Source of the DNA: Flavobacterium sp. 123
GTDB lineage: Bacteria > Bacteroidota > Bacteroidia > Flavobacteriales > Flavobacteriaceae
DNA: 64,000 nucleotides
Direction: 5' to 3'
Assembly: GCF_003634825.1 (NCBI RefSeq)
Contig: NZ_RBXD01000001.1
Coordinates: forward strand, 1,200,501 to 1,264,500
Below the pieces are notes generated by a model that saw only the letters and a list, made by a program, of their open reading frames with translations, had not been told where the DNA came from and did not search any database. Below, piece after piece: positions 2,878 through 21,315 of the stretch. The position numbers and the translations under genes are program-made. Each line of letters begins with the position of its first letter. Within the stretch, counting starts at the first letter, position 1.

Positions 2878-2920
2878 TCTTTTTGAGTTTGCGGATTAGT
2901 GATTGTGATGGCGGATTTTC

Positions 2921-3001
2921 TAGCCCCGATAGCAGTGAAAATCCTTTTATTTTTTTTCTTCAAAAAATAAAAGATTGCAACGTATAGCGGGAAGAAGCTC
3001 C
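2921..3001 (-). repeat. Structured 3' element, copy A (after mntH)
   Basis: This is one of three copies of a dispersed element. On the minus strand it begins GGAGCT 29 nt after the mntH stop and ends GGGGCTA 43 nt before the regulator start. Between conserved flanks lies a perfect 12-bp stem (2944-2955 with 2962-2973, CTTTTATTTTTT paired with AAAAAATAAAAG) around a 6-nt loop. The flanks can form an outer helix, AGC/GCU plus CCCG/CGGG. The other copies have CCTG/CAGG at that place, a compensatory change. No coding potential is seen. It could act as a terminator, an mRNA-end stabiliser or an attenuator between the two genes. Confidence 0.75.
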
Positions 3002-3030
3002 TCCTTATGCTTCTATTTATGAGAACTTAT

Positions 3031-4902
3031 TTAGTTTTTTACAATTAATAAGGGTATCGAAATTTTATGACGTAATTTATCAACGGTAGTTCCAAAAAGC
3101 AAATCTTTCATCCCAGTATGACCATGAGTTCCCATGACTAAAATATCAAAATCTCCTTTATTTACAATTTTTGGAATGACTTTGTTGGGCTTCCCAAAAC
3201 CGAGTTGTATTTTGACATTAAAGCCTTTTTCGCGGAACATTTCTTTGTATTCCAACAAGAGTTTTTCGTCAATTGTGGTTTCATGATCGTCCACATGTTT
3301 ACCATACATCATGGCGCCTACGGTTTCTACAACATGAATCAAAGTGTATTTTGCTTCCATTCCGCCTAGGTTAAAAGCGCTGTTTATTGCCGCTTCATCA
3401 GCAAAAGAAAAATCTACAGAAATAGCAATATTTTTTTTGGCATGTGACGCTGCTTCGGAAAATTTCAAAACCATATGGTGCGGAGAATGATTTTGTATGT
3501 CCAATTTTGCTTTTACAATAAACGGTTTGAATACTATATAAAGTAATAGAAAAAGGAATCCTAAAGCTAGTGGCACTACCGTTAACCATAAAACTATAGG
3601 GTGATTTGACGTTTCAAGCCAACCTTTTATTTCTGCAAAAACCAATCTTGCATTAAGTGTAACAATAATAATAGCAATTATCCAAGCGGCAACCTGAGTG
3701 AGTTTACTGATATGATATCCTTTCATTTTTGACTTATCGCTCACAAAATGAATTAAAGGAATAATTGCAAATCCTAGTTGCAAACTCAAAATTACCTGAC
3801 TCAAAATCAATAATTTTCCTGTTATGCTTTCGCCATAAATAAGAATCACAATCACTGCTGGCACAATAGCAATCAATCGAGTTATTATTCGTCTAACCCA
3901 AGGTTGAATTCGTAGATTCAGATATCCTTCCATTACAATTTGCCCAGCTAAAGTACCTGTAATTGTGGAGCTTTGTCCAGCTGCAATCAAAGCAACTGCA
4001 AATAAAATAGGTGCCCATTGTGTTCCCAAAAGGGGTTGCAAAAATTGATGTGCATCTTGAATTTCAGCTACTTCAAACATACCGTTTTTATAAAATGTGG
4101 CTGCCGCCAAAATTAAAATAGCAGCATTTACAAAAAAAGCCATATTTAAAGCTATAGTCGAATCTATAAAATTATATTTTAATGCTTGTTTGATTCCCTC
4201 ATCGGTTCTGGGGAATTTTCGGGTTTGCACCAAAGAAGAATGTAAGTATAAATTGTGAGGCATTACTGTAGCACCTATAATTCCTATGGCAATATAAAGC
4301 GCAGCTTCATTTGGCATCGATGGAATCAATCCATAAATTACTTTATTAAGTTCTGGTTCTGCAAAAATCATTTCAAAAATAAAAGAGAACCCAATAATCG
4401 CTACCAACACAATTATAAAGGCTTCCATTTTTCGAATGCCTTTATTAATTAGAAAAAGTAATAAAAAAGTATCCAAAACCGTAATCAGCACGCCTTCTAT
4501 CAACGGAATATCAAACAATAAATTAATTCCAATTGCCATTCCTAAAACCTCTGCCAAATCACAGGCGGCAATAGCAATTTCTGCCAGAAAATAAAGAATG
4601 TAATTGATAAACGGAGAGTAAGTTTCGCGGGAAGCTTGAGCTAAATCACGCTGAGTGACAATTCCTAACCTAGCGCTTAAACTTTGTAAAAGCAAAGCCA
4701 TTATATTGCTCATTAATAAAACCCAAAGCAAAGCATACCCAAACTGACTTCCACCTGCAATATCTGTAGCCCAGTTTCCTGGATCCATATAACCAACACT
4801 TACTAAATAGGCAGGTCCAAAAAAGGCTAATATTTTCCTGAAAACAGATTTTTTATTTTGTGTAGATACCGACTGATTTACTTCTTCTAAAGATTTACTC
4901 AT
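3031..4902 (-). CDS. mntH: Nramp divalent metal transporter fused to a UspA domain
   Basis: The first ~440 residues are an Nramp (MntH) proton-coupled Mn(II)/Fe(II) importer. The metal-site motifs DPGN (TM1, in YMDPGNWATDIAGG) and MPHN (TM6, in MPHNLYLHSSLVQTR) are both intact, and there are about eleven membrane spans. After a last span (VVPLALGFLFLLLYIVF) the protein continues with ~150 residues of a universal stress protein domain, ending GTHGHTG...LLFGTTVDKL, the nucleotide-binding loop of the UspA family. At 623 residues it is about 200 longer than a stand-alone MntH, and no frameshift separates the parts. It is transcribed towards the DtxR-type regulator, so metal-dependent repression is likely. 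What the Usp domain senses is unknown. Confidence 0.95.
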   Translation of the reverse strand: MSKSLEEVNQSVSTQNKKSVFRKILAFFGPAYLVSVGYMDPGNWATDIAGGSQFGYALLWVLLMSNIMALLLQSLSARLGIVTQRDLAQASRETYSPFINYILYFLAEIAIAACDLAEVLGMAIGINLLFDIPLIEGVLITVLDTFLLLFLINKGIRKMEAFIIVLVAIIGFSFIFEMIFAEPELNKVIYGLIPSMPNEAALYIAIGIIGATVMPHNLYLHSSLVQTRKFPRTDEGIKQALKYNFIDSTIALNMAFFVNAAILILAAATFYKNGMFEVAEIQDAHQFLQPLLGTQWAPILFAVALIAAGQSSTITGTLAGQIVMEGYLNLRIQPWVRRIITRLIAIVPAVIVILIYGESITGKLLILSQVILSLQLGFAIIPLIHFVSDKSKMKGYHISKLTQVAAWIIAIIIVTLNARLVFAEIKGWLETSNHPIVLWLTVVPLALGFLFLLLYIVFKPFIVKAKLDIQNHSPHHMVLKFSEAASHAKKNIAISVDFSFADEAAINSAFNLGGMEAKYTLIHVVETVGAMMYGKHVDDHETTIDEKLLLEYKEMFREKGFNVKIQLGFGKPNKVIPKIVNKGDFDILVMGTHGHTGMKDLLFGTTVDKLRHKISIPLLIVKN

Positions 4903-4924
4903 GATTGAAATTCAATTACTAAAG

Positions 4925-4932
4925 CAAATATA
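4925..4932 (-). promoter_or_regulatory. Candidate -7 box of mntH
   Basis: The minus strand reads TATATTTG, an exact match to the Bacteroidota TAnnTTTG element, 22 bp before the mntH start. No clear TTG -33 element lies at the right distance, so the call is tentative. Confidence 0.4.
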
Positions 4933-4963
4933 TGTAAAAAACTTTTATTTGAGTAATTATTTT

Positions 4964-4979
4964 TTTAGTTTTGTCTAAA
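4964..4979. promoter_or_regulatory. Candidate operator dyad between mntH and the divergent outer-membrane gene
   Basis: TTTAGTTTTGTCTAAA is a perfect 5-bp inverted repeat (TTTAG/CTAAA) with a 6-nt spacer. It lies about 60 bp upstream of mntH and 21 bp upstream of the gene at 5001. TTAG/CTAA half-sites are typical of DtxR/MntR-family operators, and such a regulator is encoded nearby. The short arms could occur by chance in AT-rich DNA. Confidence 0.35.
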
Positions 4980-5000
4980 TTTTATTTTAATTCATCCTAA

Positions 5001-5756
5001 ATGAAAAATATTTTAGCCCCAGTTTGCTTTTCATTAGTTTTGGCGAATTACTCATTCTCGCAAAATTTACCGGCAATTCAAACAGACAGACCTGATCAAA
5101 CAGAATGTCCTTTTATAACCCCAACTAATTATATTCAACTCGAGAATGGATTTATATATGAAAAGTCAGTAGAACACTCCAAAAAAATCATTGCTCCTAC
5201 CGTATTAACTAAATTTGGGATTAATGATTCATTTGAGCTCCGATTAATTACTGAATTCAATATAGAATCCAATGATTCCAAAACCATTTCAGGAATTATC
5301 CCAATTGCAATAGGATTTAAAACCAAACTATTAGAAGAAAAAGGAATTATTCCAACAACATCTTTTATAGGTCATTTACACTTTCCGAAAATAGCTTCCC
5401 CAACATATAAAGCAAATTTTTATGCTCCTGCATTTCGATTTACTATGCAACACACTTTAAGCAACAAACAAACATTAAGTTATAATCTAGGTGCTGAATG
5501 GGATGGCGAAACTGCAAAAACAACATTAATTTATACCTTAACAACAGGGTATTCATTTACAGAAAAAATGAGTGCCTACATTGAATTGTACGGCTTTATA
5601 CCACAAACAGAAACTCCGGATCACCGGTTTGATGCCGGGATTGTTTATTTACTAAATCCAAATCATCAGTTAGACATTTCATCAGGAATCTGGCAAACTC
5701 AAAAGTCTTTAACATATTTTATTTCGTTTGGTTATTCATTCCGATTCAAAATCTAA
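5001..5756 (+). CDS. Outer-membrane beta-barrel protein of the MetA-pathway phenol-degradation/transporter type
   Basis: A 251-residue exported protein. Residues 1-20 (MKNILAPVCFSLVLANYSFS) form a signal peptide ending before QNLPAIQTDRPDQTE. The TDRPDQTE start followed by alternating beta strands and an aromatic C-terminus (YFISFGYSFRFKI) is typical of the family annotated as transporter/phenol MetA degradation in Bacteroidota, which are predicted outer-membrane barrels of unknown substrate. It is divergent from mntH and shares its intergenic region, so a link to metal uptake is possible but unproven. Confidence 0.75.
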   Translation: MKNILAPVCFSLVLANYSFSQNLPAIQTDRPDQTECPFITPTNYIQLENGFIYEKSVEHSKKIIAPTVLTKFGINDSFELRLITEFNIESNDSKTISGIIPIAIGFKTKLLEEKGIIPTTSFIGHLHFPKIASPTYKANFYAPAFRFTMQHTLSNKQTLSYNLGAEWDGETAKTTLIYTLTTGYSFTEKMSAYIELYGFIPQTETPDHRFDAGIVYLLNPNHQLDISSGIWQTQKSLTYFISFGYSFRFKI

Positions 5757-5779
5757 TCTAATTTTATTTATAAATTAGT

Positions 5780-5787
5780 TACTTTTG
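5780..5787 (+). promoter_or_regulatory. Candidate -7 box of crtY
   Basis: TACTTTTG matches TAnnTTTG exactly and lies 21 bp before the lycopene cyclase start. No clear TTG is seen 17-23 nt upstream. Only 52 bp separate this gene from the preceding stop, yet a separate promoter looks likely. Confidence 0.4.
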
Positions 5788-5808
5788 GGAAGCATTTTTT
5801 AACCAAAT

Positions 5809-6960
5809 ATGAAACAATACGATTACATTTTCACGGGTGCCGGTTTATCCGCTTTGATGACCGTATATAAAATGGCGCAATCCGGTCAATTCAAGGATAA
5901 AACCATTTTGCTATTGGATGAAAATGCAAAAAAAACCAATGACAGAACTTGGTGTTTTTGGACCAAGAAAAAAGGAATCTGGAAGAACATTATTTCTAAA
6001 ACTTGGGACTCCGCCTTATTTGCTAATCAAGATTTTGAACGCGATTTAGATTTAAATCCCTATCAATACCATATGGTTAAAGGCTTGGATTTTTATACTC
6101 AAGTTTTTGATGTGATTTCAAAAGAAAAAAACATCCATTTTTTAAATCAAAAGGTAACGGATATTGAGGAATCGGAAACCATAATTATGGTACAAACCGA
6201 AACCGAATCGTTCTCTTGTAGCAAACTTTTCAATAGTATTTATACTAAAAGCAAGATGGATAATCAAACCGATTATCCTGTATTGCAACAGCATTTTATA
6301 GGCTGGTTTGTCAAAAGTGAACAAGCCGTTTTCAATCCAGAACAGGCAACTTTTATGGATTTTTCGGTAGCCCAAAAAGGAAATACGCGCTTTATGTACG
6401 TTTTACCAACAGCTACAACCGAAGCATTATTAGAATACACCTTGTTTTCGCATACGCTTTTAACCAAAGAAGAATACGAAACCGAAATTGAAAACTATAT
6501 CCAAAAACTCGGAATTTCACACTATGAAATCGTCGAAAAAGAGCATGGAAGCATCCCAATGACTTGCTATCCTTTTTGGAAACAAAACACTAAAAACGTA
6601 ATCAATATAGGCAGTGCTGGCGGATGGACCAAAGCAAGTACAGGCTATACATTCAAAAATTCTGATAAAAAATCGAGCGAATTAGTGGCTTTTCTTCAAA
6701 GAGAAACCAACTTTACAAAATTCCATAAACGAAATAAATTTTGGTTTTATGATTTGTTGTTGTTAGACATTCTGGACCGAAAAAATGAATTAGGTTCTTC
6801 TATATTTTCTTCGATGTTCAAAAAAGGAAACCCAACTTTGATATTCAAATTTCTGGATGAAGAAACCTCTCTATTTGAAGACATTCAGGTAATTTTGAAA
6901 TGTCCAAAAGGGCCTTTTATCCAAGCATTGTTTCGTGCTATTTTCAAATTCAAGAATTAA
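5809..6960 (+). CDS. crtY: Lycopene beta-cyclase family flavoprotein
   Basis: A 383-residue CrtY-type cyclase, expected to turn lycopene into beta-carotene on the way to zeaxanthin-type yellow pigments of flavobacteria. The N-terminus has a dinucleotide-binding fold (YDYIFTGAGLSALMTVY, then LLLDE). The family motif DRTWCFW lies at about residues 46-52, and a second conserved region reads GSIPMTCYPF...NVINIGSAGGWTKASTGYTF, typical of the FAD-binding C-terminal part. Length is normal for bacterial CrtY. No other carotenoid gene is adjacent, so the rest of the pathway must be elsewhere in the genome. Confidence 0.93.
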   Translation: MKQYDYIFTGAGLSALMTVYKMAQSGQFKDKTILLLDENAKKTNDRTWCFWTKKKGIWKNIISKTWDSALFANQDFERDLDLNPYQYHMVKGLDFYTQVFDVISKEKNIHFLNQKVTDIEESETIIMVQTETESFSCSKLFNSIYTKSKMDNQTDYPVLQQHFIGWFVKSEQAVFNPEQATFMDFSVAQKGNTRFMYVLPTATTEALLEYTLFSHTLLTKEEYETEIENYIQKLGISHYEIVEKEHGSIPMTCYPFWKQNTKNVINIGSAGGWTKASTGYTFKNSDKKSSELVAFLQRETNFTKFHKRNKFWFYDLLLLDILDRKNELGSSIFSSMFKKGNPTLIFKFLDEETSLFEDIQVILKCPKGPFIQALFRAIFKFKN

Positions 6961-7017
6961 CAATCAAACTATAACAAAACTTTATAATTCAACTTCTTTT
7001 CTTGAGCGTAAACTTTG

Positions 7018-7025
7018 TAACTTTG
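7018..7025 (+). promoter_or_regulatory. Candidate -7 box of the bacilliredoxin gene
   Basis: TAACTTTG fits TAnnTTTG and lies 36 bp before the start codon. A TTG at 7002-7004 is only 13 nt upstream, shorter than usual, so the promoter call is moderate. Confidence 0.4.
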
Positions 7026-7061
7026 CAACTTGAAATTATTATTTATTTAAAATAAAAAAAT

Positions 7062-7472
7062 ATGTATCCAGAAGAAATGGTAAAACCAATGCAAGCTGAA
7101 TTAACAGCAGCGGGTTTTCAAGATTTACATAGTGCTGAAGCAGTTAATCAAGCAATAACTGCAGAAGGTACAACATTAGTAGTGGTAAATTCAGTTTGTG
7201 GTTGTGCAGCAAGAAACGCACGTCCAGGAGCAAAATTGAGCTTAGAAGGTGCTAAAAAACCAGATCATTTAATCACTGTTTTTGCAGGTGTTGATAAGGA
7301 AGCTGTTGATGCAGCAAGACAACATATGTTCCCTTTTCCTCCATCATCGCCAAGTATGGCTTTGTTCAAAAACGGAGAATTAGTTCATATGTTAGAGCGT
7401 CACCACATTGAAGGTCGCCCAGCTGAATTAATCGCTGAGAACTTACAAGATGCTTTCAACGAATACTGCTAG
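7062..7472 (+). CDS. Bacilliredoxin, BrxA/BrxB (YphP/YqiW) family
   Basis: A 136-residue thioredoxin-fold protein. The family start [14 protein letters not shown] is intact, and the active site reads [14 protein letters not shown], a CGC motif at about residues 46-48. Further conserved blocks are [31 protein letters not shown] and a C-terminal Cys. Bacilliredoxins remove bacillithiol from modified proteins in Firmicutes, and homologues are common in Bacteroidota, some of which make bacillithiol. It stands alone between its own promoter and a strong terminator. The exact thiol partner in this organism is not shown by the sequence. Confidence 0.93.
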
Positions 7473-7507
7473 TTTTTAAACACTAGATATTCTTTAAAAA
7501 GATTTTT

Positions 7508-7565
7508 ACCGCAAATTCACAAATTACTTTTATCAATTTGTGAATTTGCGGTTTATTTTTTTTTT
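7508..7565 (+). terminator. Rho-independent terminator after the bacilliredoxin gene
   Basis: A perfect 18-bp inverted repeat (7508-7525 ACCGCAAATTCACAAATT with 7535-7552) encloses a 9-nt loop and is followed by a T-rich tract. The arms belong to a small family of related 18-mers that also forms the hairpin at 16435-16493. Confidence 0.85.
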
Positions 7566-7647
7566 AATCTGCGGTAAAATCCTAAATTTGCACTGAATTC
7601 TTCCATTTAGAACTCACAACATATTTTCTCACTTAAACGTTTATAGC

Positions 7648-9006
7648 ATGCAACTGTATAACACCTTAAGCGCAGAAGAAAGAGCTGAACTGATTGATCA
7701 GGCCGGTAAACAACGCCTTACGTTGTCTTTCTATGCGTATGCCAAAATTCAAGATCCTAAAAAATTTCGCGACGATTTATTTATCGAATGGAACAAGCTC
7801 GACGCTCTTGGTCGAACCTATGTTGCCAAAGAAGGAATTAATGCTCAAATGAGTGTTCCTGCAGAAAATTTTGAAACTTTCCGCGAAACTTTAGAAGCAT
7901 ATGATTTCATGAAAAACATTCGTTTGAATGTGGCGGTGGAGCACGATGATCATTCGTTTTTGAAACTAACTGTAAAAGTTCGTGATAAAATTGTAGCCGA
8001 TGGATTGAACGACGAAACTTTTGATGTAACTAATATTGGTGTGCATTTAAAAGCGCAAGAATTCAATGAAATTCTGGACAATCCAGATACAATTGTAGTT
8101 GATTTTAGAAATCATTACGAGAGCGAAATTGGTCATTTCAAAGGAGCTATTACACCTGATGTGGAAACTTTCCGGGAATCTTTACCAATCATCAACGAAC
8201 AATTGAAAGATTTCAAAGAAGATAAAAACTTGGTTATGTATTGTACTGGTGGAATTCGTTGTGAAAAAGCTTCTGCGTATTTCAAACATCAAGGTTTTAA
8301 AAATGTGTTCCAATTAGAAGGTGGAATTATTAATTATGCCAAACAAATCAAAGAAGAAAATCTTGAAAGTAAATTCATAGGAAAGAACTTTGTTTTTGAC
8401 CATCGTCTAGGCGAAAGAATTACCGACGATATTGTATCACAATGTCATCAATGCGGAAAACCTTGCGACAATCATACTAATTGTGAAAACGTCGGTTGCC
8501 ATTTATTATTCATCCAATGCGACGATTGTAAAGCAGCGATGGAAAACTGTTGCTCTACCGAATGTTTAGACATTATACACTTGCCACTCGTAGAACAAGT
8601 AAAATTACGAAGAGGAATCCAGGTAGGAAACAAAGTCTTTCGCAAAGGAAAATCAGATAAATTAGCCTTCAAACATTCTGGCGAACTATCCGATAAATCA
8701 TTGGCTTTAGCCGAAAAATCAACAGCTATTCGCCAAAAAATAAAAGTAAAAAAAGTACTTCTTGGTAAAGCAGAACACTATTATGCAAAAGCACAAGTAG
8801 CGCTATTTACTATCGAAAACCAAGAATTAAACCTTGGTGATAAAATATTGATTTCAGGACCAACAACTGGAAATCAAGAATTAGTTTTAGAAAAAATGTT
8901 AGTCAACGGAACGGAAGGAGTTCAAGCAAAAATGGGTGATAAAGTAACTTTTACTTTGCCTTTCCGCATCCGATTATCAGATAAATTATATAAAATTACA
9001 AACTAA
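7648..9006 (+). CDS. trhO: TrhO-like tRNA uridine(34) hydroxylase with extra C-terminal domain
   Basis: TrhO (YceA) hydroxylates wobble uridine 34 of tRNA using O2, giving ho5U. The N-terminal acylphosphatase-like domain covers about residues 1-110, and the rhodanese domain about 130-240 with catalytic Cys199 in CTGGIRCEK. A Cys-rich block at 266-306 (spaced CHQCGKPC, CENVGC, CDDC, CC, C) looks like a metal-binding segment. E. coli TrhO is about 350 residues, but this protein has 452. Residues 368-452 are an added domain that closely resembles residues 328-413 of the next gene product (shared GDKIL, LPFRIR and SDKLYKI motifs). The two genes are 6 bp apart and surely co-transcribed. The activity assignment is by family, and the role of the extra domain is inference. 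Confidence 0.92.
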   Translation: MQLYNTLSAEERAELIDQAGKQRLTLSFYAYAKIQDPKKFRDDLFIEWNKLDALGRTYVAKEGINAQMSVPAENFETFRETLEAYDFMKNIRLNVAVEHDDHSFLKLTVKVRDKIVADGLNDETFDVTNIGVHLKAQEFNEILDNPDTIVVDFRNHYESEIGHFKGAITPDVETFRESLPIINEQLKDFKEDKNLVMYCTGGIRCEKASAYFKHQGFKNVFQLEGGIINYAKQIKEENLESKFIGKNFVFDHRLGERITDDIVSQCHQCGKPCDNHTNCENVGCHLLFIQCDDCKAAMENCCSTECLDIIHLPLVEQVKLRRGIQVGNKVFRKGKSDKLAFKHSGELSDKSLALAEKSTAIRQKIKVKKVLLGKAEHYYAKAQVALFTIENQELNLGDKILISGPTTGNQELVLEKMLVNGTEGVQAKMGDKVTFTLPFRIRLSDKLYKITN

Positions 9007-9012
9007 TTTATC

Positions 9013-10254
9013 ATGACATTGACGAACAAAATAGAGCTTATGGCTCCCGCTGGGAACTTTGAGTCTTTACAAGCTGGGTTAGATAATGGCGCTGATTCTG
9101 TTTACTTTGGTGTAGAACAATTGAACATGCGCGCTCGTGCTACCGTGAATTTCACTATGGATGATTTGCCCGAAATTGCAAAACGTTGTGAGGCTAAAAA
9201 TGTGCGAAGCTACCTAACATTAAATACCATTATTTACGATCATGACTTATCGGTTGTAAAAACATTATTGAATAAAGCAAAAGAAGCAAATATTACTGCG
9301 GTTATTGCTTCGGACCAAGCGGTTATTGCTATGGCGAGAAGCATTGGGATGGAGGTTCACATTTCTACTCAGTTAAATGTTACGAATATTGAAACCATAA
9401 AATTCTATAGTTTATTTGCAGATACGATGGTTTTGAGCCGTGAATTGAGTTTGCGTCAAGTAAAAAAAATCACGGAACAAATCGAAAAAGAACAAATTAA
9501 AGGCCCAAACGGAAATTTAGTAGAAATCGAAATTTTTGGACACGGTGCATTGTGTATGGCCGTATCAGGAAAATGTTATTTGAGTTTACACTCCAATAAT
9601 TCTTCTGCAAATCGTGGTGCTTGCAAACAAAATTGTCGAAAAAAATATACCGTTATTGACCAAGAAACTGGCTTTGAAATCGAAGTTGATAATGAATATT
9701 TAATGTCGCCAAAGGATTTATGCACTTTAGACTTTCTAGACCAAGTAATTGATTCTGGTATTCAAGTCTTGAAAATCGAAGGTCGTGGTCGTGCTCCTGA
9801 ATACGTTGCCACAGTCATCAAAACTTATCGTGAAGCCATTGATAGTTATTACGACGGAAGCTTTTCGAAAGAGAAAGTAACGCTTTGGATGGAAGCGTTG
9901 AATACCGTTTACAATCGTGGTTTTTGGTCTGGTTATTATCTGGGGCAAGAATTAGGCGAATGGAGCGATGTTTCTGGCTCAATGGCTACACAGAAAAAAG
10001 TCTATGTAGGTAAAGGCACCCATTATTTTCCGAAAGCAACTATTGGTCAATTCAAAATTGAAGCTTACGACATCAAACTTGGCGATAAAATTCTGGTAAC
10101 AGGACCAAGTACTGGCGCAAAAGAAATGATTATTGAGGAAATGTATGTCAATGATAAAGTAGCTGACAAAGCTACCAAAGGAGATGATTGCACTTTCAAA
10201 CTGCCTTTCAGAATCCGAATGTCTGACAAATTATATAAAATTGTGGAAGCCTAA
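9013..10254 (+). CDS. trhP: U32-family TrhP-like tRNA hydroxylation protein
   Basis: A 413-residue U32 'peptidase' family member of the YegQ/TrhP type, which takes part in prephenate-dependent formation of 5-hydroxyuridine at tRNA position 34. The U32 signature is complete (EIFGHGALCMAVSGKCYLS, Cys181 and Cys188), with GACKQNC (Cys204, Cys208) completing a four-Cys set likely to hold an iron-sulfur cluster. Residues 328-413 form the U32 C-terminal beta-barrel, duplicated in the preceding TrhO-like protein. The stop overlaps the ferredoxin start by one base (TAATG). Together the operon puts O2-dependent and O2-independent routes to the same modification side by side. Protease activity is unlikely. 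Confidence 0.9.
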   Translation: MTLTNKIELMAPAGNFESLQAGLDNGADSVYFGVEQLNMRARATVNFTMDDLPEIAKRCEAKNVRSYLTLNTIIYDHDLSVVKTLLNKAKEANITAVIASDQAVIAMARSIGMEVHISTQLNVTNIETIKFYSLFADTMVLSRELSLRQVKKITEQIEKEQIKGPNGNLVEIEIFGHGALCMAVSGKCYLSLHSNNSSANRGACKQNCRKKYTVIDQETGFEIEVDNEYLMSPKDLCTLDFLDQVIDSGIQVLKIEGRGRAPEYVATVIKTYREAIDSYYDGSFSKEKVTLWMEALNTVYNRGFWSGYYLGQELGEWSDVSGSMATQKKVYVGKGTHYFPKATIGQFKIEAYDIKLGDKILVTGPSTGAKEMIIEEMYVNDKVADKATKGDDCTFKLPFRIRMSDKLYKIVEA

Positions 10255-10484
10255 TGGTTATTGTTACGTTACAAAGAGACAAATGCATTGGCTGTAATTA
10301 TTGCGTCGAAATGGCTCCAGTTCAGTTTCAAATGTCCAAGAAAGACGGAAAATCGGTTTTGATTCATTCCCAAAATGCCAAAGGTTTTTTTACCTTAAAA
10401 TCACACGATCACAGTATTGTTGAAAGTTGTGAATTAGCCGTAAAAGCCTGTCCAGTCAAAATAATTACACTAAAAGAAACCTAA
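10254..10484 (+). CDS. Single-cluster 4Fe-4S ferredoxin coupled to trhP
   Basis: A 76-residue ferredoxin. Cys11, Cys14 and Cys17 (CIGCNYC) with Cys66 in ACP form one [4Fe-4S] site. Cys59 could form a disulfide, as in other single-cluster ferredoxins. The second cluster motif of bacterial 2x[4Fe-4S] ferredoxins is absent. Its ATG overlaps the trhP stop (TAATG), so translation is probably coupled, and a strong terminator follows 29 bp later. The position suggests that it supplies electrons or cluster support to TrhP or TrhO, an inference from operon structure only. Confidence 0.9.
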   Translation: MVIVTLQRDKCIGCNYCVEMAPVQFQMSKKDGKSVLIHSQNAKGFFTLKSHDHSIVESCELAVKACPVKIITLKET

Positions 10485-10513
10485 AATTCACAGCCAAAAA
10501 GAGTTTAAATTCA

Positions 10514-10548
10514 ACCCATTACAGCATCTTTTGTAATGGGTTTTTTTA
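10514..10548 (+). terminator. Rho-independent terminator of the trhO-trhP-ferredoxin operon
   Basis: A perfect 10-bp stem (ACCCATTACA at 10514-10523 with TGTAATGGGT at 10532-10541) and 8-nt loop are followed directly by a T run. Confidence 0.9.
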
Positions 10549-10582
10549 GTATAAATTTATGATTTATTGCTCTTTTGAACGG

Positions 10583-10614
10583 TTGTAACTTAAAACTAAA
10601 AAATACTATCTTTA
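10583..10614 (+). promoter_or_regulatory. Candidate promoter of the ricT-gldH-pbp operon
   Basis: TTG at 10583-10585 and TATCTTTA at 10607-10614 are separated by 21 nt, within the spacing of Bacteroidota sigma-A promoters (TTG/TAnnTTTG). The box ends 56 bp before the ricT ATG. Confidence 0.5.
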
Positions 10615-10670
10615 CACATTAATCGTTTTAAGAACTTAAGTTGCTTTTTTGCAACACTACATATAAAATT

Positions 10671-11972: not shown

Positions 11973-12435
11973 TGCTTTATTGCTTTTAGTTGCAACACTT
12001 TTTTTTTCTTGTGATAAAAAAAGAGTTTTTGATGAATACAAATCTGTTGGGAGTGCTTGGCACAAAGACAGTATTGTAACTTTCAATTTACCAGAATTAG
12101 ACTCGACAAAACGATACAATTTATTTGTAACTTTGAGAGACAACAACAATTATCCATTTAATAATTTGTTCTTAATTGTAGCTTTAGAAATGCCAAATGG
12201 TTTTACTAAAGTTGACACATTAGAATACCAAATGGCTAATCCAGATGGTTCATTACTTGGTGATGGATTCACTGATATTAAAGAAAGTAAATTGTTTTAC
12301 AAAGAAAATGTACGTTTCAGAGGAAAGTATAAAGTATATGTAAAACAAGCGGTAAGAGAAACTGGAAAAGTTCCGGGAGTAGAACTTCTAGAAGGAATTA
12401 CAGATGTAGGTTTTAGAATAGAAAAAAAAGAATAG
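11956..12435 (+). CDS. gldH: Gliding motility lipoprotein GldH
   Basis: A 159-residue lipoprotein with a type II signal peptide and lipobox LFFSC at about residues 15-19. The body (VFDEYKSVGSAWHKDSIVTF, then a beta-rich domain ending GITDVGFRIEK) has the length and pattern of GldH, required with the other Gld proteins for Flavobacterium gliding and type IX secretion. It overlaps the end of ricT by 17 bp and is followed 9 bp later by a penicillin-binding protein gene, so the three form an operon. Confidence 0.9.
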   Translation: MSIKNSALLLLVATLFFSCDKKRVFDEYKSVGSAWHKDSIVTFNLPELDSTKRYNLFVTLRDNNNYPFNNLFLIVALEMPNGFTKVDTLEYQMANPDGSLLGDGFTDIKESKLFYKENVRFRGKYKVYVKQAVRETGKVPGVELLEGITDVGFRIEKKE

Positions 12436-12444
12436 AATTGCATT

Positions 12445-14760: not shown

Positions 14761-14771
14761 TTTTTAAATCT

Positions 14772-14840
14772 GGAGCTTTTTCCTGCTATTCGCTATATCC
14801 ACGCCAAAAAAAGCGTGGGATGCCGCTACTATCAGGGCTA
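14772..14840 (+). repeat. Structured 3' element, copy B (after the penicillin-binding protein)
   Basis: The element starts GGAGCT 11 nt after the stop codon and ends AGGGCTA 55 nt before the next start. The central stem is CCACGC/GCGTGG (14799-14804 with 14813-14818), unlike the stems of copies A and C. The outer helix can be AGC/GCU with CCTG/CAGG. Its orientation relative to the upstream gene is the same as in copies A and C. Confidence 0.75.
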
Positions 14841-14895
14841 GGGCAATTGGATTCAAAATAAAATTTATCATTTCAATAAATTATAAATTACTAGT

Positions 14896-15597
14896 ATGAT
14901 AAACAAAAAAGTAAACTCAGTCCATGAAGCCCTTCGAGGCATTGAAAACGGAATGACAATCATGCTTGGTGGTTTTGGATTATGTGGTATTCCTGAAAAT
15001 TCCATTGCCGAATTGGTAAAAAAACAAACCAAAAATCTAACTTGTATTTCAAATAATGCAGGCGTTGACGATTTTGGATTGGGATTGCTTTTACAGCAAA
15101 AACAAATCAAAAAAATGATTTCTTCCTATGTAGGAGAAAATGCTGAATTTGAACGCCAAATGCTTTCCGGCGAACTCGAAGTAGACCTTATTCCTCAAGG
15201 AACACTGGCAGAACGTTGTCGCGCTGCACAAACTGGAATCCCCGCTTTTTTTACACCAGCAGGCTTCGGAACCGAAGTTGCCATTGGTAAAGAAACACGA
15301 GAATTTAACGGAAAAATGCACGTAATGGAATTGGCCTTCAAAGCTGATTTTGCCATTGTAAAAGCTTGGAAAGGCGACACCGCAGGAAACTTAATCTTTA
15401 AAGGAACTGCCCGCAACTTCAATCCTTGTATGGCAGGTGCCGCAAAAATAACCATCGCCGAAGTTGAAGAACTAGTTGAGGCTGGAACTTTAGATCCCAA
15501 TCAAATTCACACTCCTGGCATATTTGTACAACGTATTTTTCAAGGCGAGAAATACGAAAAAAGGATTGAAAAAAGAACGGTTAGGAAAAGAGAATAG
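14896..15597 (+). CDS. scoA: 3-oxoacid CoA-transferase subunit A
   Basis: A 233-residue alpha subunit of succinyl-CoA:3-ketoacid (acetoacetate) CoA-transferase. The conserved N-terminal CoA-binding segment reads [16 protein letters not shown], followed by [22 protein letters not shown] and FFTPAGFGT, all typical. The beta subunit is encoded 169 bp downstream. The pair moves CoA between succinyl-CoA and acetoacetate in ketone body or acid use. Confidence 0.94.
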
Positions 15598-15766
15598 AAT
15601 AAAGAAAATAGACCAAAACTTTCCTTTATTCTTTCAACTAAAACTTAAATGAACTCATATTCCTTATATGGTTGAAAAAACTCATGTACCCTTAAATTTT
15701 TTAATCTCGTTCATAAAAATGTTTAGTGTTTAGTTGAAAAACTTATATGGTTCAAAAAATAAAATT
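15598..15766 (+). other. AT-rich spacer with a direct repeat between scoA and scoB
   Basis: The 169-bp gap holds two near-copies of CTTATATGGTT(G/C)AAAAAA (around 15663 and 15742) and no ORF. The subunit genes of this enzyme are usually tightly spaced, so this looks like inserted or expanded repeat DNA. No stem-loop terminator was found in it. Confidence 0.4.
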
Positions 15767-16426
15767 ATGGCTTTAACAAAAGAAGACATCGCAAAACGAA
15801 TAGCCCAAGAATTAAAAGATGGTTTTTTTGTAAACCTAGGCATCGGTATTCCAACCTTAGTAGCAAACTATATTCCAAAAGGAATTAATGTGGAATTTCA
15901 AAGTGAAAATGGTGTTCTCGGCATGGGACCTTTTCCCTTTGAAGGCGAAGAAGACGCTGATTTAATCAATGCCGGAAAACAAACTATTACAACATTAGCC
16001 GGAGCTTCTTTTTTTGATTCTGCTTTGAGTTTCGGAATGATTCGGGGACAACATGTGGATTTAACCATTCTTGGCGCCATGGAAGTTGCTGAAAATGGAG
16101 ATATTGCCAACTGGAAAATTCCTGGAAAAATGGTCAAAGGAATGGGCGGCGCAATGGATCTAGTTGCTTCTGCTGAAAACATTATCGTAGCCATGATGCA
16201 TGTCAACAAAGCTGGCGAATCTAAAATTCTGAAAAAATGTACTTTGCCATTGACCGGAGTTGCTTGCGTAAAAAAAGTAGTCACCGAATTTGCCGTTCTC
16301 GAAGTAACACCAAAAGGTTTTAAACTCTTAGAACGCGCACCAGGGATTTCTGTAGAACACATCATCGCCTCCACCGAAGCGGAATTAATTATTGATGGTG
16401 AAATTCCAGAAATGGTGATAGATTAA
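15767..16426 (+). CDS. scoB: 3-oxoacid CoA-transferase subunit B
   Basis: A 219-residue beta subunit. The ATG at 15767 gives the usual start MALTKEDIAKRIAQELKDG; an in-frame TTG 33 bp upstream is less plausible. The catalytic Glu lies in the SENGVLGMGP motif, which forms the glutamyl-CoA intermediate. Also seen are GIGIPTLVANYIP and the G-rich segment KGMGGAMDLV. It works with the upstream alpha subunit and is followed by a bidirectional terminator shared with fumarase. Confidence 0.95.
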   Translation: MALTKEDIAKRIAQELKDGFFVNLGIGIPTLVANYIPKGINVEFQSENGVLGMGPFPFEGEEDADLINAGKQTITTLAGASFFDSALSFGMIRGQHVDLTILGAMEVAENGDIANWKIPGKMVKGMGGAMDLVASAENIIVAMMHVNKAGESKILKKCTLPLTGVACVKKVVTEFAVLEVTPKGFKLLERAPGISVEHIIASTEAELIIDGEIPEMVID

Positions 16427-16434
16427 AAAAATTA

Positions 16435-16493
16435 ACCGCAAATCCGCAAATTTTGAATCTCAAAAACTTTGAAATAATTTGCGGATTTACGGT
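16435..16493. terminator. Bidirectional terminator between scoB and fumarase
   Basis: Two 18-nt arms (16435-16452 ACCGCAAATCCGCAAATT and 16476-16493) pair with one mismatch around a 23-nt loop. On the minus strand the hairpin is followed by a seven-T run, and on the plus strand by AAAATTTT. The arms resemble those at 7508-7552, and a further degenerate copy lies at 16522-16540. Confidence 0.65.
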
Positions 16494-16546
16494 AAAATTT
16501 TCTTTGTGAACTTTGCAAAAAAACTTTGCGACTTTACGGTTAGTTT

Positions 16547-18148
16547 CTACAAATTCTCAAAGAAATCATTTCCTTTATCATCTGTGATAATAAAAGCAGG
16601 AAAATCTTTCACAGTAATTTTACGAACCGCTTCCATTCCTAATTCTTCAAAATCAACAACCTCAACTGAAATAATATTTTCTTTTGCTAAAATTGCTGCA
16701 GGACCACCTATAGAACCTAAATAGAAACCACCATAAGTTTTACAAGCATTCATAACTTCTTTCGTACGATTTCCTTTGGCAAGCATAACCATACTTCCTC
16801 CATTTTTTTGGAACTCATCTACATACACATCCATACGACCAGCAGTAGTTGGGCCAAAACTTCCTGAAGCCATTCCTTCTGGTGTTTTAGCTGGACCAGC
16901 ATAGTATACAGGATGATTCTTGAAGTATTCCGGCATTGGCTTACCAGCATCCAATAATTCTTTAATTTTGGCGTGAGCAATATCACGGGCTACTATCAAA
17001 GTTCCGTTTAATTTCAAACGTGTTTTGATTGGGTATTGTGATAATTTTTTAAGAATATCAGCCATTGGTTGGTTCAAATCAATTTCAACGGCTTCTTCTA
17101 AATGTGGTGGAGTTGCAGGTAATAAACGTTTTGGATTTACTTCTAATTGCTCTACAAAAATTCCATCTTTAGTAATTTTACCTTTAATATTTCTATCAGC
17201 TGAACAAGAAACACCTAATCCAACTGGACAAGAGGCAGCGTGACGAGGCAAACGAATTACGCGAACATCATGGGTAAAATATTTTCCTCCAAATTGCGCT
17301 CCAATATGACTTTCTTGACAAATTAATTGTATTCTTTTTTCCCACTCTAAATCACGAAAAGCTTGACCCGCCATGTTTCCTGAAGTAGGTAAATTATCAA
17401 AATATCCAGCAGATGCTTTTTTTACCGCAGCTAAATTTGCTTCGGCTGATGTTCCTCCAATTACAAAAGCCAAATGATATGGTGGACAAGCGGAAGTTCC
17501 TAAATCCATGATTTTAGCACGAACAAAAGCATCCATTGATTTTTCATTCAACAACGATTTTGTTTGTTGGTATAAATAAGTTTTGTTAGCAGAACCTCCA
17601 CCTTTTGCTAAAAACAAAAATTCATATGACGCGCCTTTTTTAGCATAAATATCAATTTGAGCTGGAAGATTAGAACCTGAGTTTTTTTCCTCAAACATAC
17701 TAATCGGAACAATTTGCGAATACCTTAAATTACGTTCTTGATAGGTATTGAAAATCCCTTTTGACAACCATTCTGCATCATCCACTCCAGTATATACATT
17801 CTCCCCTTTTTTGGCCATAACAATTGCTGTTCCTGTATCTTGGCAAGATGGTAATTCCCCTTCAATAGCTACAGCGGCATTTTGCAATAAATTATACGCC
17901 ACAAAACGATCGTTATCCGTTGCTTCTGGATCATCTAAAATCGCTTTTAGTTTTTCTAAATGTGATGTACGCAACATAAAAGAAACATCTTTCATCGCTT
18001 CTTGCGAAAGCAATTCTAATCCTTTTGGATCAACGGTTAAGATTTCTCTATCACCTAGTTTTTCTAATTTTACGTAATCGGATGAAATTTTTCGATATTG
18101 AGTATCGTCTTTTAAAATAGGATAGGGATCCTGATATATAAAGTCCAT
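16547..18148 (-). CDS. fumA: Class I fumarate hydratase
   Basis: A 533-residue iron-sulfur (class I, two-domain-in-one-chain) fumarase that interconverts fumarate and malate in the TCA cycle. Cluster-ligand candidates are in [19 protein letters not shown] and the Cys of [10 protein letters not shown]. The C-terminal part reads [17 protein letters not shown] and [11 protein letters not shown], characteristic of the beta-type domain. Length and motif order are normal. It converges with scoB and has its own well-formed promoter. Confidence 0.95.
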
Positions 18149-18172
18149 ATTTAATAATTAATTTTAGAAATG

Positions 18173-18200
18173 TAAATATAAGAATTGTTCCAGGAATCAA
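18173..18200 (-). promoter_or_regulatory. Promoter of the fumarase gene
   Basis: On the minus strand TTG (18198-18200), a 17-nt spacer and TATATTTA (18173-18180) fit the Bacteroidota consensus. The -7 box ends 24 bp before the ATG. Confidence 0.6.
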
Positions 18201-18285
18201 ATGTGATTTATATCAACTTATGGCTTAAAATTGTTTAGAATTAAACCATAAAATACCATTTAAAATATAATTCCTTTTCTCTGTT

Positions 18286-19725
18286 TTAAAAAAACCAGCT
18301 TGCTACCAAAATAGCTGTAACTACACAAATCACATCAACTACAAGCATCGTTCCTAAAGCGTAACGCGTATTTTTTATATTAACAGAACCAAAGTAAACC
18401 GCTATCACATAAAAAGTGCTTTCGGCACTACATTGAAAAATACTACTTAATCTTCCCGTCAAGGAATCGGCACCAAAAGTATTCATCGAATCAATTAAAA
18501 ATCCTCGTGAGCCTGCAGAACTAAAAGGTCTAAGCAATGCTACTGGTAGAGCATCTGTGATTTCTTTGCTTACTCCCATATTTGAAAATCCAAAAGCTAT
18601 CCATTCACTAATAATTTCAAACAAACCACTGTTTCTGAATAAAGAAATAGCCACTAACATTCCCAAAACATACGGAAAAATAGTAACTCCTGTTTTAATT
18701 CCATTATTGGCACCAACCACAAAAGTTTCATAAACAGTTGTATTTGCTTCTGTAAATTTCTTTTCTTTAACAAAGGAAAGGATCAAAGTAAATGCAATAA
18801 TTCCAACTAGAATTAAAGCGGAAAGATTTGACGTGAAATAATTTTTACCAATTAAATCTAAATGGTTTACATATAGCAATAAACCAACTATAGCTGCTAT
18901 TAATGTCATTAAACCGATGACCAAAGAGGCGCTTTTAAAATTAATTTTTTGTTTAATTCCAACAATTAAAAATGCTGCAATTGTACCGATAAAAGAAGTT
19001 ATGATACACGGCAACATCACATCAGCGGGATTACTGGCATTAGCCGCTGCACGATAACCAATGATAGAAGTTGCAATTAATGTAAGTCCTGAAGCATGTA
19101 GACACATGAACATAATTTGAGCATCACTGGCCTTATCTTTTTCGGGGTTTATTTCTTGTAAACTTTCCATGGCTTTTAAACCAAATGGAGTCGCAGCAGA
19201 ATCCAATCCCAAGAAATTGGCCGCAAAGTTTAATGTCATATAGGAAATGGAAGGGTGATTTTTTGGAATACTTGGAAATACTTTCACGAACACGGGACTC
19301 AAAACTTTTGCTAGTTTTTGTGTAGCTCCAGAAATGATTAAAAGTTCCATCAATCCGCAGAAAAATGCCAAATAAGCAATAAGTGGCAAAATTAAATCTA
19401 CCAATGTATTTTTACACGTAGGCAATAATCCATCTGATTTTTGAACCCCGCTATATATTTTAACTACTTTATTTTTAAACACATAAGTAGTATCGGCATT
19501 AATGGTATCTCGGTTGATAATCATCGTTTGATCTGGCGCTTTCTTGATGCTATCTTTTATAAAAGCAGGAACTTGCTCGATGTATTTTTCAGTTAATAAA
19601 ATAGGATCGTCTTTTTTACCATTTAAAATATAATCGATCGTATAACTATTCCCAGAAAACAAACTGATGACTACAAATACTATTGAAGAAATAAAAATAG
19701 TCAGCCAAAATCTACTCAATACCAT
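18286..19725 (-). CDS. SpmA-SpmB fusion membrane protein (nucleoside-recognition Gate domains)
   Basis: A 479-residue inner-membrane protein joining the two spore-maturation-type Gate-domain proteins. The SpmA-like half contains NFAANFLGLDSAATPFGLKAM. The SpmB-like half contains LFRNSGLFEIISEW and LRPFSSAGSRGFLIDSM. Residues ~30-95, between the first span and the rest, form an exported hydrophilic loop rich in Thr, Asp and Lys, not part of classical SpmA. The family occurs in non-sporulating Bacteroidota and its transport substrate is unknown. It stands alone between fumarase and the exonuclease gene. Confidence 0.85.
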   Translation of the reverse strand: MVLSRFWLTIFISSIVFVVISLFSGNSYTIDYILNGKKDDPILLTEKYIEQVPAFIKDSIKKAPDQTMIINRDTINADTTYVFKNKVVKIYSGVQKSDGLLPTCKNTLVDLILPLIAYLAFFCGLMELLIISGATQKLAKVLSPVFVKVFPSIPKNHPSISYMTLNFAANFLGLDSAATPFGLKAMESLQEINPEKDKASDAQIMFMCLHASGLTLIATSIIGYRAAANASNPADVMLPCIITSFIGTIAAFLIVGIKQKINFKSASLVIGLMTLIAAIVGLLLYVNHLDLIGKNYFTSNLSALILVGIIAFTLILSFVKEKKFTEANTTVYETFVVGANNGIKTGVTIFPYVLGMLVAISLFRNSGLFEIISEWIAFGFSNMGVSKEITDALPVALLRPFSSAGSRGFLIDSMNTFGADSLTGRLSSIFQCSAESTFYVIAVYFGSVNIKNTRYALGTMLVVDVICVVTAILVASWFF

Positions 19726-19886
19726 AATTTATAATTTTTGTAAATGTAATAAATCAATGTTAATTGCAATGTCAATGTCAATACCAATAAAAGAATCTTC
19801 AAGTAGGAAAAATCGCTTCTTCATTTCCAAAAGGCAATTAAACTCAAAATTCTGTCACTGTATTTTCATATTGTGATTGTCTTTAT

Positions 19887-20600
19887 TTACACATGAATAA
19901 TCTCATCCTCAATCAATAAATCTTCTCTACGCAAGCGAAGGAAAATCTGTGCAACCGCAATCGTATCTTTTTCGCAATACGTCACAATACGGTCAATGTC
20001 TTTTTCTACATAAAAAACATGTCCGACTTGACTGCCATCAATATCTCCTTTTGGAGAAGGGATTCCAAGAATTTTACACATCAATTTTAAGGAAGTGAAA
20101 TGCTTGTAATCGCCAAATTTCCATAATTCCAACGTATCCAAATGCGGGATTTCCCATGGCTTTTTGCCAAATAAATTCAGTTTATTCGGAATTGCAATGT
20201 TATTGATAATCATGCGTCGGGCTAGGAATGGAATATCAAATTCCTTTGCATTATGTCCACACAAAACATGTTGGGGCTGATTAAAGTGATTGTTTAGCAA
20301 ATTATTAAAATCATGTAGAATCTTCTTTTCTTCTCCAAAAAAAGAGGTTACTCTAAAATTTCGGATGTCGCCTTTGATGGTAAAATAACCCACCGAAATA
20401 CAAACAATTTTACCAAATTCAGCCCAAATTCCTGCTCTATCGTAAAAATCCTCAGGTGTGTATTCGTCTTTGCGTTGGTATTGGGTTTTGTGATCCCAAA
20501 GATTTTTCATCTCTTCATCCAAAGCGTTATAATCTTCGGCTTCTGGAACAGTTTCTATATCTAGAAACAGAATATTATTGAGGTTTATTTTTTCTATCAT
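19887..20600 (-). CDS. DEDDy-type 3'-5' exonuclease related to the PolB proofreading domain
   Basis: A 237-residue predicted exonuclease. Motif Exo I is FLDIETVPE near residue 13. Exo II is GHNAKEFDIPFL, and Exo III is YCEKDTIAVAQ near the C-terminus, giving the acidic two-metal site. The family (B-family polymerase exonuclease domain, stand-alone) is widespread in Bacteroidota and probably trims DNA or RNA 3' ends, but its substrate is not known. Confidence 0.88.
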   Translation of the reverse strand: MIEKINLNNILFLDIETVPEAEDYNALDEEMKNLWDHKTQYQRKDEYTPEDFYDRAGIWAEFGKIVCISVGYFTIKGDIRNFRVTSFFGEEKKILHDFNNLLNNHFNQPQHVLCGHNAKEFDIPFLARRMIINNIAIPNKLNLFGKKPWEIPHLDTLELWKFGDYKHFTSLKLMCKILGIPSPKGDIDGSQVGHVFYVEKDIDRIVTYCEKDTIAVAQIFLRLRREDLLIEDEIIHV

Positions 20601-20684
20601 GTGTTTTGTGTTTTACTCCAAATGAAACGAATTTACAAAAATTCAAAAGGCAACATCTTCTTTTGAAAGTAATTGTTTACAAAT

Positions 20685-21155
20685 TCAAAACAAACTTTGC
20701 TGCGTACTAGGAGTTTCATGTTCCAATAACCATTTTTTGCGCCATAATCCACCTGCATAACCCGTTAGCGAACCATCTGTACCGATGACTCTGTGACAGG
20801 GAACAACAATCCAAAGCGGATTTTTACCATTGGCAGAAGCTACTGCGCGAATGGCTTTTACATCGCCTAATTTCTTGGACAAATCCATATAACTACACGT
20901 TTTCCCAAAAGGGATTTCGAGTAATCCTTTCCAGACTTTTTGCTGAAATTCAGTACCTTTTGGATTGAGTTTAAAATCGAAACTTGTTCGTTTTCCTTCA
21001 AAATAGTCGTTGAGTTGAGTAACGGCTTCTTGTAAAACAAATGGAATATCCGCCGAAACTACGCCTTCATCTGAAACGGAGATTACTGCAATTCCGTTTT
21101 CGTCACCTGTGATTTGTGTTATTCCTAAAGGGGTTTTAATGTAGGTTGTTTCCAT
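20685..21155 (-). CDS. ogt: Methylated-DNA-protein-cysteine methyltransferase
   Basis: A 156-residue suicide repair enzyme removing alkyl groups from O6-alkylguanine. The acceptor Cys lies in IVVPCHRVIG, with the helix-turn-helix arginine-finger region TEFQQKVWKGLLEIPFGKT upstream and GGLWRKKWLLEHE at the end. The frame is open for 22 more codons upstream, but the ATG at 21155 (METTYIKTPLG) gives the normal family start. It lies downstream of hemB beyond copy C of the structured repeat. Confidence 0.95.
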   Translation of the reverse strand: METTYIKTPLGITQITGDENGIAVISVSDEGVVSADIPFVLQEAVTQLNDYFEGKRTSFDFKLNPKGTEFQQKVWKGLLEIPFGKTCSYMDLSKKLGDVKAIRAVASANGKNPLWIVVPCHRVIGTDGSLTGYAGGLWRKKWLLEHETPSTQQSLF

Positions 21156-21238
21156 TTTATAAAAGTAAAAAAAATTAAGCTCAAAGAAAGTAATGGATAT
21201 AAAAAAACCACTTGCTTCCACAAATGGTTTTATATTTT

Positions 21239-21315
21239 TAGCCCTGATAGTAGCGGCATCCTTTACCTTCTTTCTTTAAGAAGGTAAAGATACAGCGGAT
21301 AGCAGGATAAGCTCC
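21239..21315 (-). repeat. Structured 3' element, copy C (after hemB)
   Basis: On the minus strand the element begins GGAGCT immediately after the hemB stop codon and ends AGGGCTA. The central stem is a perfect 12 bp (21261-21272 CTTTACCTTCTT with 21278-21289 AAGAAGGTAAAG), a sequence unrelated to the stems of copies A and B although the flanks match. The outer helix can be AGC/GCU plus CCTG/CAGG. Confidence 0.75.

Follow-up and report, generated by a model that had tools for sequence, protein, structure and literature searches.

Flavo-1 in Flavobacterium: a covarying fold that may belong to a strand-specific DNA repeat rather than to a 3' RNA element

A stretch of 64,000 nucleotides from Flavobacterium sp. 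123 (contig NZ_RBXD01000001.1; here called the window) contains three look-alike folding elements that read TAGCCC first on one strand and GGAGCT first on the other. An earlier note, made from the letters alone, had taken them for structured RNA at the 3' ends of genes, which raises the question of what is selected here: part of a neighbouring messenger, an RNA of its own, or the DNA itself. In an Rfam-wide cmscan of the window, the gathering score was reached by three matches only, all of them Flavo-1 (RF01705; cut-off 42 bits): copy 1 at 2918..3001 on the + strand (cmscan 2918-2998, 80.4 bits, E 3.6e-16), copy 2 at 14772..14843 on the - strand (cmscan 14843-14775, 58.2 bits, E 4.6e-10) and copy 3 at 21236..21315 on the + strand (cmscan 21236-21313, 76.3 bits, E 4.6e-15). 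These spans differ by at most 3 nt from those of the earlier note, the E-values lie far beyond chance, and its guess that the family might be Flavo-1 was correct, with all three copies above the cut-off (58.2-80.4 bits). Consensus structure and strand are those of the Rfam entry (Weinberg et al. 2010); Flavo-1 is a known family, and nothing was found that takes the copies out of it. As shown below, the structural claim holds, the claim of a 3' RNA mostly fails, and the data favour, with moderate confidence, a DNA repeat that folds in a strand-specific manner.

On the TAGCCC strand, the outer part of the fold consists of a CCNG/CNGG foot, an A-G mismatch, a U-R/Y-A step, a GNA/GNA loop and an R-Y/R-Y step, and further inwards lie another 3x3 loop and two or three A-U pairs, then a bulged C and finally the variable stem. 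The 3x3 internal loops between the short helices are rich in G-A. Some variants are linked, AAATC occurring with ATTGNA and CATC with ATANA, and a third variant was seen in two copies. Besides the frame called type A there is a second one, type B (GCGTNAGGGAT ... AGCCCGACC), with the same core; most type A stems carry T on the 5' arm and A on the 3' arm. In the window, the inner hairpins of 12, 6 and 12 bp are paired but unrelated in sequence, and the outer helix switches from CCTG/CAGG in two copies to CCCG/CGGG in one, both as described before.

The paired changes extend well beyond these three copies. This genome of 2.92 Mb (G000) has 42 matches above the cut-off and 45 at E <0.001. In an alignment of 24 of its copies, made with the inner stems shortened, 98.7% of the cells are paired and 10 of 17 pairs have changed on both sides. 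The covariation score of 0.41 exceeds that of shuffles (0.14) and of slid controls (0.11 or less). For 85 copies from 80 named loci, in an alignment fitted to the model, the values are 97.5%, 13 of 16 pairs and 0.51 (shuffles 0.17, slid controls at most 0.11); in both sets the counted cells are not independent events. From these alignments we take the fold to be real, the paired changes pointing to selection on a single-stranded fold. The earlier note had drawn the same conclusion from three copies, and compensatory pairing was indeed found in the genome-wide as well as the named-loci alignment.

Which strand is selected can be judged from wobble pairs: a fold selected on one strand tolerates G-U, not A-C, and on the other strand the roles swap. 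The 169 aligned rows hold 62 G-U and 11 A-C cells on the Rfam strand (TAGCCC first); here too the cells are not independent events, and the alignments lean to the model, though equally in both orientations. Among 102 rows from three genomes the ratio is 32 to 3, and it keeps its direction in each gene context, with 12:1 where the Rfam strand is antisense to both neighbours, 8:0 where it is sense and 12:2 in divergent or convergent gaps. The named loci give 22:2 (antisense) and 5:1 (sense), this genome alone 10:1 (42 rows). A model-free comparison of 105 distinct inner stems yielded 12 G-T versus 4 A-C and 11 G-A versus 2 C-T mismatches. Predicted folding energies of the three window copies are mixed, the shuffle z-score being better on the Rfam strand for two of them as RNA and for all three as DNA. 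At all three, this strand is antisense to both flanking genes. The earlier note had read the element GGAGCT first, in the sense of the upstream gene, a reading reversed by the wobble pairs, which favour the opposite strand whatever the direction of the genes. Because the G-U excess stays put when gene direction flips, selection seems not to act on the neighbours' mRNA, and selection on the fold seems, as far as aligned sequences can tell, independent of their transcription. Setting wobble pairs against gene direction distinguishes, from the sequence alone, an element of the mRNA from one that does not depend on transcription, and could be extended to other orphan Rfam motifs that occur in many copies on both strands.

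Gene context, obtained by simple open reading frame (ORF) calling, was compared for 105 copies: all 45 of this genome, the best-scoring 30 of 59 in G010 and the best-scoring 30 of 108 in G103, two other complete genomes for which deeper scans gave 55 and 99 matches above the cut-off. The G010 and G103 samples lean to high scores, and orthologous copies common to G000 and G010 are not independent. In the window, the GGAGCT end does lie 29, 11 and 0 nt past the upstream stop codon (copies 1, 2 and 3), within the range of 0-29 nt noted earlier. The constant relation to gene 3' ends is lost genome-wide: the GGAGCT end faces a gene end in 22 and a gene start in 23 of the 45 copies of this genome (55 and 50 in all three genomes). 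Of the copies in tandem gaps, 41 are antisense and 28 sense, which is not a significant difference (p 0.15), and the 69 tandem, 22 divergent and 14 convergent gaps agree with the 72.3, 20.4 and 12.3 expected by gap length (chi-square p 0.78; expectation from the 106, 30 and 18 kb that gaps of 110 bp or more of these types make up in the 80 named loci).

What remains of the proposed link to gene ends is a pull towards stop codons. Of the 55 GGAGCT ends that face a gene end, 34 lie at most 35 nt from the stop codon, compared with 21.3 expected from gap sizes (14/22 in G000, 15/18 in G010 and, weakly, 5/15 in G103). The TAGCCC end is not pulled (13/42 versus 13.5 expected), and it is rare near gene starts (12/63 versus 20.7). 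The pull may reflect a preference of insertion or a tolerance, the only candidates that we offer. Apart from it, the 3' RNA reading finds little support, and placement relative to gene 3' ends is mostly random across the genome, the outcome that had been named as speaking against it.

Transcription signals give a similar picture. TAnnTTTG is the Bacteroidetes promoter box; upstream on the TAGCCC side it is not enriched, occurring at 15 of 104 copies there versus 18, 30 and 21 in the three remaining directions. A T-run of at least 5 within 20 nt past the element was found in 6/104 copies in the TAGCCC sense and 16/104 in the GGAGCT sense, and the terminator scan showed no terminator-like site overlapping any of the three window copies. 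An intrinsic terminator was rejected as an explanation on these grounds, T-runs being absent at the three window copies and few across the 104. A cis-acting 3' untranslated region element was likewise dropped, both sense placement 3' of genes and selection on the transcribed strand having failed.

The element is widespread in the genus. Among 121 Flavobacterium genomes drawn evenly, with at most 35 candidates scored per genome, 112 contain Flavo-1 and 9 have none at E 1e-6; across the order, 88 of 296 genomes, from 24 of 90 genera, carry it. One viral contig carries the first of two patterns, reading as a complete copy. With one element as query, phage records gave no match and plasmid records only four, all in Paraclostridium and covering 64-65% of the query at 77-79% identity, probably by chance.

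At single loci, copies persist over deep time at several sites, with frame and stem in differing combinations. Past the stop codon of the penicillin-binding protein (PBP) gene beside copy 2, an element is present in 24 of 80 rows (the window and 79 of the 80 named loci, 23 of which carry it), in all 24 oriented as in the window. The 34 rows of one clade lack it, and at least 13 changes are required on the tree; in some relatives its place is taken, by eye, by an ordinary terminator or by an element resembling type B. At the PBP and hemB loci, inner stems differ between orthologs (approximate identities 0.52 and 0.50, as the inner stem was cut short in four rows) about as much as between loci (0.53); those at two other loci are conserved (0.83 and 0.93). 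One 50-nt stem occurs in the hemB gap of five named loci and in the PBP gap of another. Its 30-nt core has 111 matches with at most 2 mismatches in 29 of the 121 genomes, up to 11 per genome; in 30 loci inspected by eye it always lies inside a Flavo-1 frame (one truncated), of type A, type B or with a nested repeat, R2. That one stem core sits in differing frames indicates that inner stem and outer frame separate as modules. Such an exchange would most simply be achieved by recombination or conversion between copies. Of the four copies of the core in G103, one overlaps an RF01705 match; Rfam misses some copies.

R2 itself is about 46 bp long (TACTTCAC...GGAGTTCAGTGAACTTCGTTTG) and is nested in Flavo-1 arms after GAT and before GNARYG. 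It was seen in the left arm (L145 5035, L135 12322, L151 12322, L138 746, L142 20, L152 328) and in the right arm (L129 5888, L156 12319), and it replaces the entire central hairpin at the PBP gap in L152 and L056. A TCCCGAAGCTTCGGGA-like palindrome occupies the left arm in L031, L041, L042 (G000) and L137 12341. Past the PBP stop codon, L146, L157, L161 and L178 have type-B-like elements whose side arm shows an A-run, a stem and a T-run, resembling a bidirectional terminator, and L197/L062 (L062 from G002, a genome with only 3 Flavo-1 matches) has a decayed Flavo-1 remnant. In L153, five copies follow one another about 300 bp apart (5294-6576), as if a 300-bp unit had been duplicated in tandem.

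We hold with middling confidence that Flavo-1 is a dispersed, strand-specific hairpin repeat, similar to repetitive extragenic palindromic (REP) sequences or miniature inverted-repeat transposable elements (MITEs), that folds as single-stranded DNA. The TAGCCC-first strand would fold whenever it is single-stranded; an enzyme acting on single-stranded DNA would have recognised this strand and spread the element into intergenic gaps, and selection or copy-to-copy conversion would since have kept the fold intact. Our favoured version is that the spread took place long ago and that inheritance has been mostly vertical. Copies in G000 (at most 89% alike) and G010 (best pair 92%, 30 copies compared) look old. 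In G103, five listed pairs with unrelated flanks among the 30 copies compared reach 94-97% likeness, which suggests that spread or conversion happened fairly recently there, and one identical pair with identical flanks is a duplication.

Several observations weigh against this DNA repeat. The evidence fits single-stranded DNA and an independently made RNA of the same strand alike. No clean insertion with an empty site was seen, as none of 238 candidate pairs over 191 elements had both flanks aligned to the junction, the relatives searched being too diverged, and at the similarity seen in G000 movement there is not shown to be current. Ten RAYT transposase genes whose flanks were read have palindromes of their own, other than Flavo-1, and 26 of 70 Flavo-1-rich genomes lack the RAYT group A4. 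There is no replication-strand bias (permutation p 0.11 in G103, 0.40 in G010 and 0.71 in G000, the origin having been placed by GC skew and dnaA without a clear result). The 22 named rows without assigned gene context show a G-U:A-C ratio of only 7:5, and the other strand of copy 3 folds better as RNA (-27.4 versus -24.5 kcal/mol, z -3.90 versus -2.82). Finally, orthologous frames exceed their 40-nt flanks in likeness at four loci, clearly at three: identities are 0.89/0.84/0.78/0.75 for the outer part, 0.61/0.60/0.77/0.55 upstream and 0.69/0.71/0.55/0.58 downstream, random identity being 0.49, and the outer part beats both flanks in 116/120, 34/45, 56/105 and 122/136 ortholog pairs (degraded or R2-bearing rows, some rows of the L153 array and three of the 23 PBP rows were left out, and three further PBP rows were unparsed). 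Orthologous copies that are more alike than their flanks suggest upkeep beyond that of a neutral relic.

A more specific version names the enzyme: Flavo-1 would be the substrate of a RAYT-kind tyrosine (HUH) transposase, with exchangeable modules swapped between loci while pairing is kept, and Rfam's 'small RNA' would really be a single-stranded DNA repeat. We regard this as a tentative proposal that is unlikely to be right in full. Like REPs, Flavo-1 is an intergenic, multi-copy, strand-specific mismatched hairpin that is pulled towards stop codons. Some REP families have a GGAG foot, and most type A copies have GGAG at one end. Each of the GCTCC columns is conserved in 67-76 of 85 rows, yet the strand favoured by G-U pairs is the one without a 5' GGAG. 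The REP foot is given as GT[AG]G in the accessible part of PMC6006769, and REPs measure 20-40 bp according to the available text of PMC3733652, compared with about 80 nt for Flavo-1. The RAYT genes with other palindromes and the Flavo-1-rich genomes without group A4 are further differences.

The transposase domain PF01797 is present in 81 of the 121 genus genomes and absent from 18 of the 70 Flavo-1-rich ones. The scan of 18 out of 20 Y1/RAYT loci (77 kb) gave 3 Flavo-1 copies, each 1.0-1.4 kb from the gene, which is the background level. Group A4, searched with a profile of 7 sequences, occurs in 2 of the 15 genomes that have no more than 3 Flavo-1 copies and in 64 of the 106 others (Fisher p 0.0007; raw counts that ignore relatedness, with at most 35 candidates scored per genome). 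RAYT/REP as a simple answer was set aside: the RAYT group goes with copy number yet is unnecessary, and Flavo-1 does not flank RAYT genes. The RAYTs' own REP and Flavo-1 share about 13 similar bases (maximal local score 10.5 versus 9.5 in shuffles, mean 7.0 versus 5.8), a resemblance in sequence that may serve as a lead and is not a link. By their WQ and YIHNNP motifs, the genus's RAYT transposases are similar to subclass 2.6 of Quentin et al. 2018, as far as these motifs are described in the accessible part of that paper (PMC6006769). In G000, the RAYT-like Y1 transposase ORF at L087 5343-5966 starts out of frame when compared with its relatives. It lies about 1.2 kb from the Flavo-1 copy at L087 4022-4121 and is flanked by its own palindromic REP, the inner stem of which varies between species, by eye, with pairing kept.

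A structured small RNA (sRNA) with transcription of its own, produced at many loci from the TAGCCC strand, would explain why the favoured strand is fixed and the fold covaries strongly, and Rfam types the family as 'Gene; sRNA'. The 2010 motif table has three columns that we take to be RNA, cis and switch. Flavo-1 is entered there as 'y n n' (Weinberg 2010, PMC2864571, in the portion available). Neither gene context nor the strand comparison singles out an sRNA, and the promoter box is not enriched upstream (15/104), few elements are followed by a T-run in the TAGCCC sense (6/104), and tens of near-interchangeable copies are unusual for an sRNA gene. The F. psychrophilum transcriptome, in the part of the report at hand, shows no consistent placement in transcripts, with hits sense or antisense to transcribed regions alike and many outside (PMC9723704). 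Taken together, we consider an sRNA rather improbable. Somewhat further down we place a chromosome-organising or protein-binding DNA site, a cruciform or hairpin to which a nucleoid protein or topoisomerase binds and which selection keeps in place. It would account for orthologous copies that outlast their flanks at four loci and for the indifference to gene direction, and the decayed PBP copy in a genome with 3 matches looks as if a trans factor had been lost, albeit in one case. Such a site is hard to reconcile with the lack of replication-strand bias, with the many copies lost or replaced among relatives, and with copy numbers that, within a single genus, range from 0 in some species to about 100 in others.

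Least probable by far is that Flavo-1 acts in cis as a 3' element of the gene upstream, be it as an mRNA stabiliser, a processing site or a terminator. The placement of all three window copies, the stop-codon pull (34/55 versus 21.3 expected), the single orientation in 24 of 80 rows at the PBP gene and the good fold of the mRNA strand of copy 3 all fit it. Yet the GGAGCT end stands at a gene start in 50 of 105 copies, the G-U excess is on the complement of those mRNAs and stays there whichever way the genes run, and the terminator scan was negative at the three copies, hemB having a terminator-like hairpin of its own past the element. Flavo-1 resembles intrinsic terminators in being a stable hairpin after some stop codons, and differs in that T-runs rarely follow it and that most type A stems have T on the 5' and A on the 3' arm. 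With MITEs it shares short length, lack of coding capacity, dispersal and nesting with other palindromes (R2); it differs in that neither a transposase-linked terminal inverted repeat nor a target-site duplication could be shown, with 238 candidate empty sites compared in diverged relatives.

Flavo-1 has been on small-RNA lists since 2010, and the available parts of Weinberg 2010 (PMC2864571), PMC9723704 and the sRNA review PMC9029176 give no function for it. In the literature on REP or palindromic repeats in Flavobacterium or Bacteroidetes, mostly open-access papers in the portions available, no treatment of Flavo-1 as a DNA repeat was found; a 2025 survey counts REP-like sequences in two Flavobacterium genomes, with Flavo-1 unnamed in the part consulted (PMC12306157). 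If the DNA reading is true, a family counted among sRNAs, for example in the available text of PMC9029176, would have to be counted as a repeat instead, and the enzyme behind it would become a concrete target.

All three window copies are of type A. Copy 1 has the CCCG/CGGG frame and the AAATC/ATTG variant, with its GGAGCT end at 2996-3001 on the - strand and a 12-bp inner variable stem-loop at 2944..2973 (+); it lies between an ORF for an NRAMP+Usp transporter and an iron-dependent repressor. Copies 2 and 3 share the CCTG/CAGG frame and the CATC/ATA variant. The inner stem-loop of copy 2 (6 bp) is at 14799..14818 (-), and the neighbours are a transglycosylase/transpeptidase PBP gene and a CoA transferase subunit gene; that of copy 3 (12 bp) is at 21261..21289 (+), between hemB (ALAD) and an O6-methylguanine methyltransferase gene. 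Past copy 3, when read from hemB, the consensus scan found an intrinsic-terminator-like hairpin with a T-run at 21204..21231 (-), separate from Flavo-1 (1 found versus 0.2 expected in shuffles). L132 and L171 come from metagenome-assembled genome records titled Klebsiella pneumoniae and Lentimicrobium sp. that have Flavobacterium-like contigs and are probably misassigned bins. The window also contains a very long ORF of 3342 aa at 46380-56408 (-).

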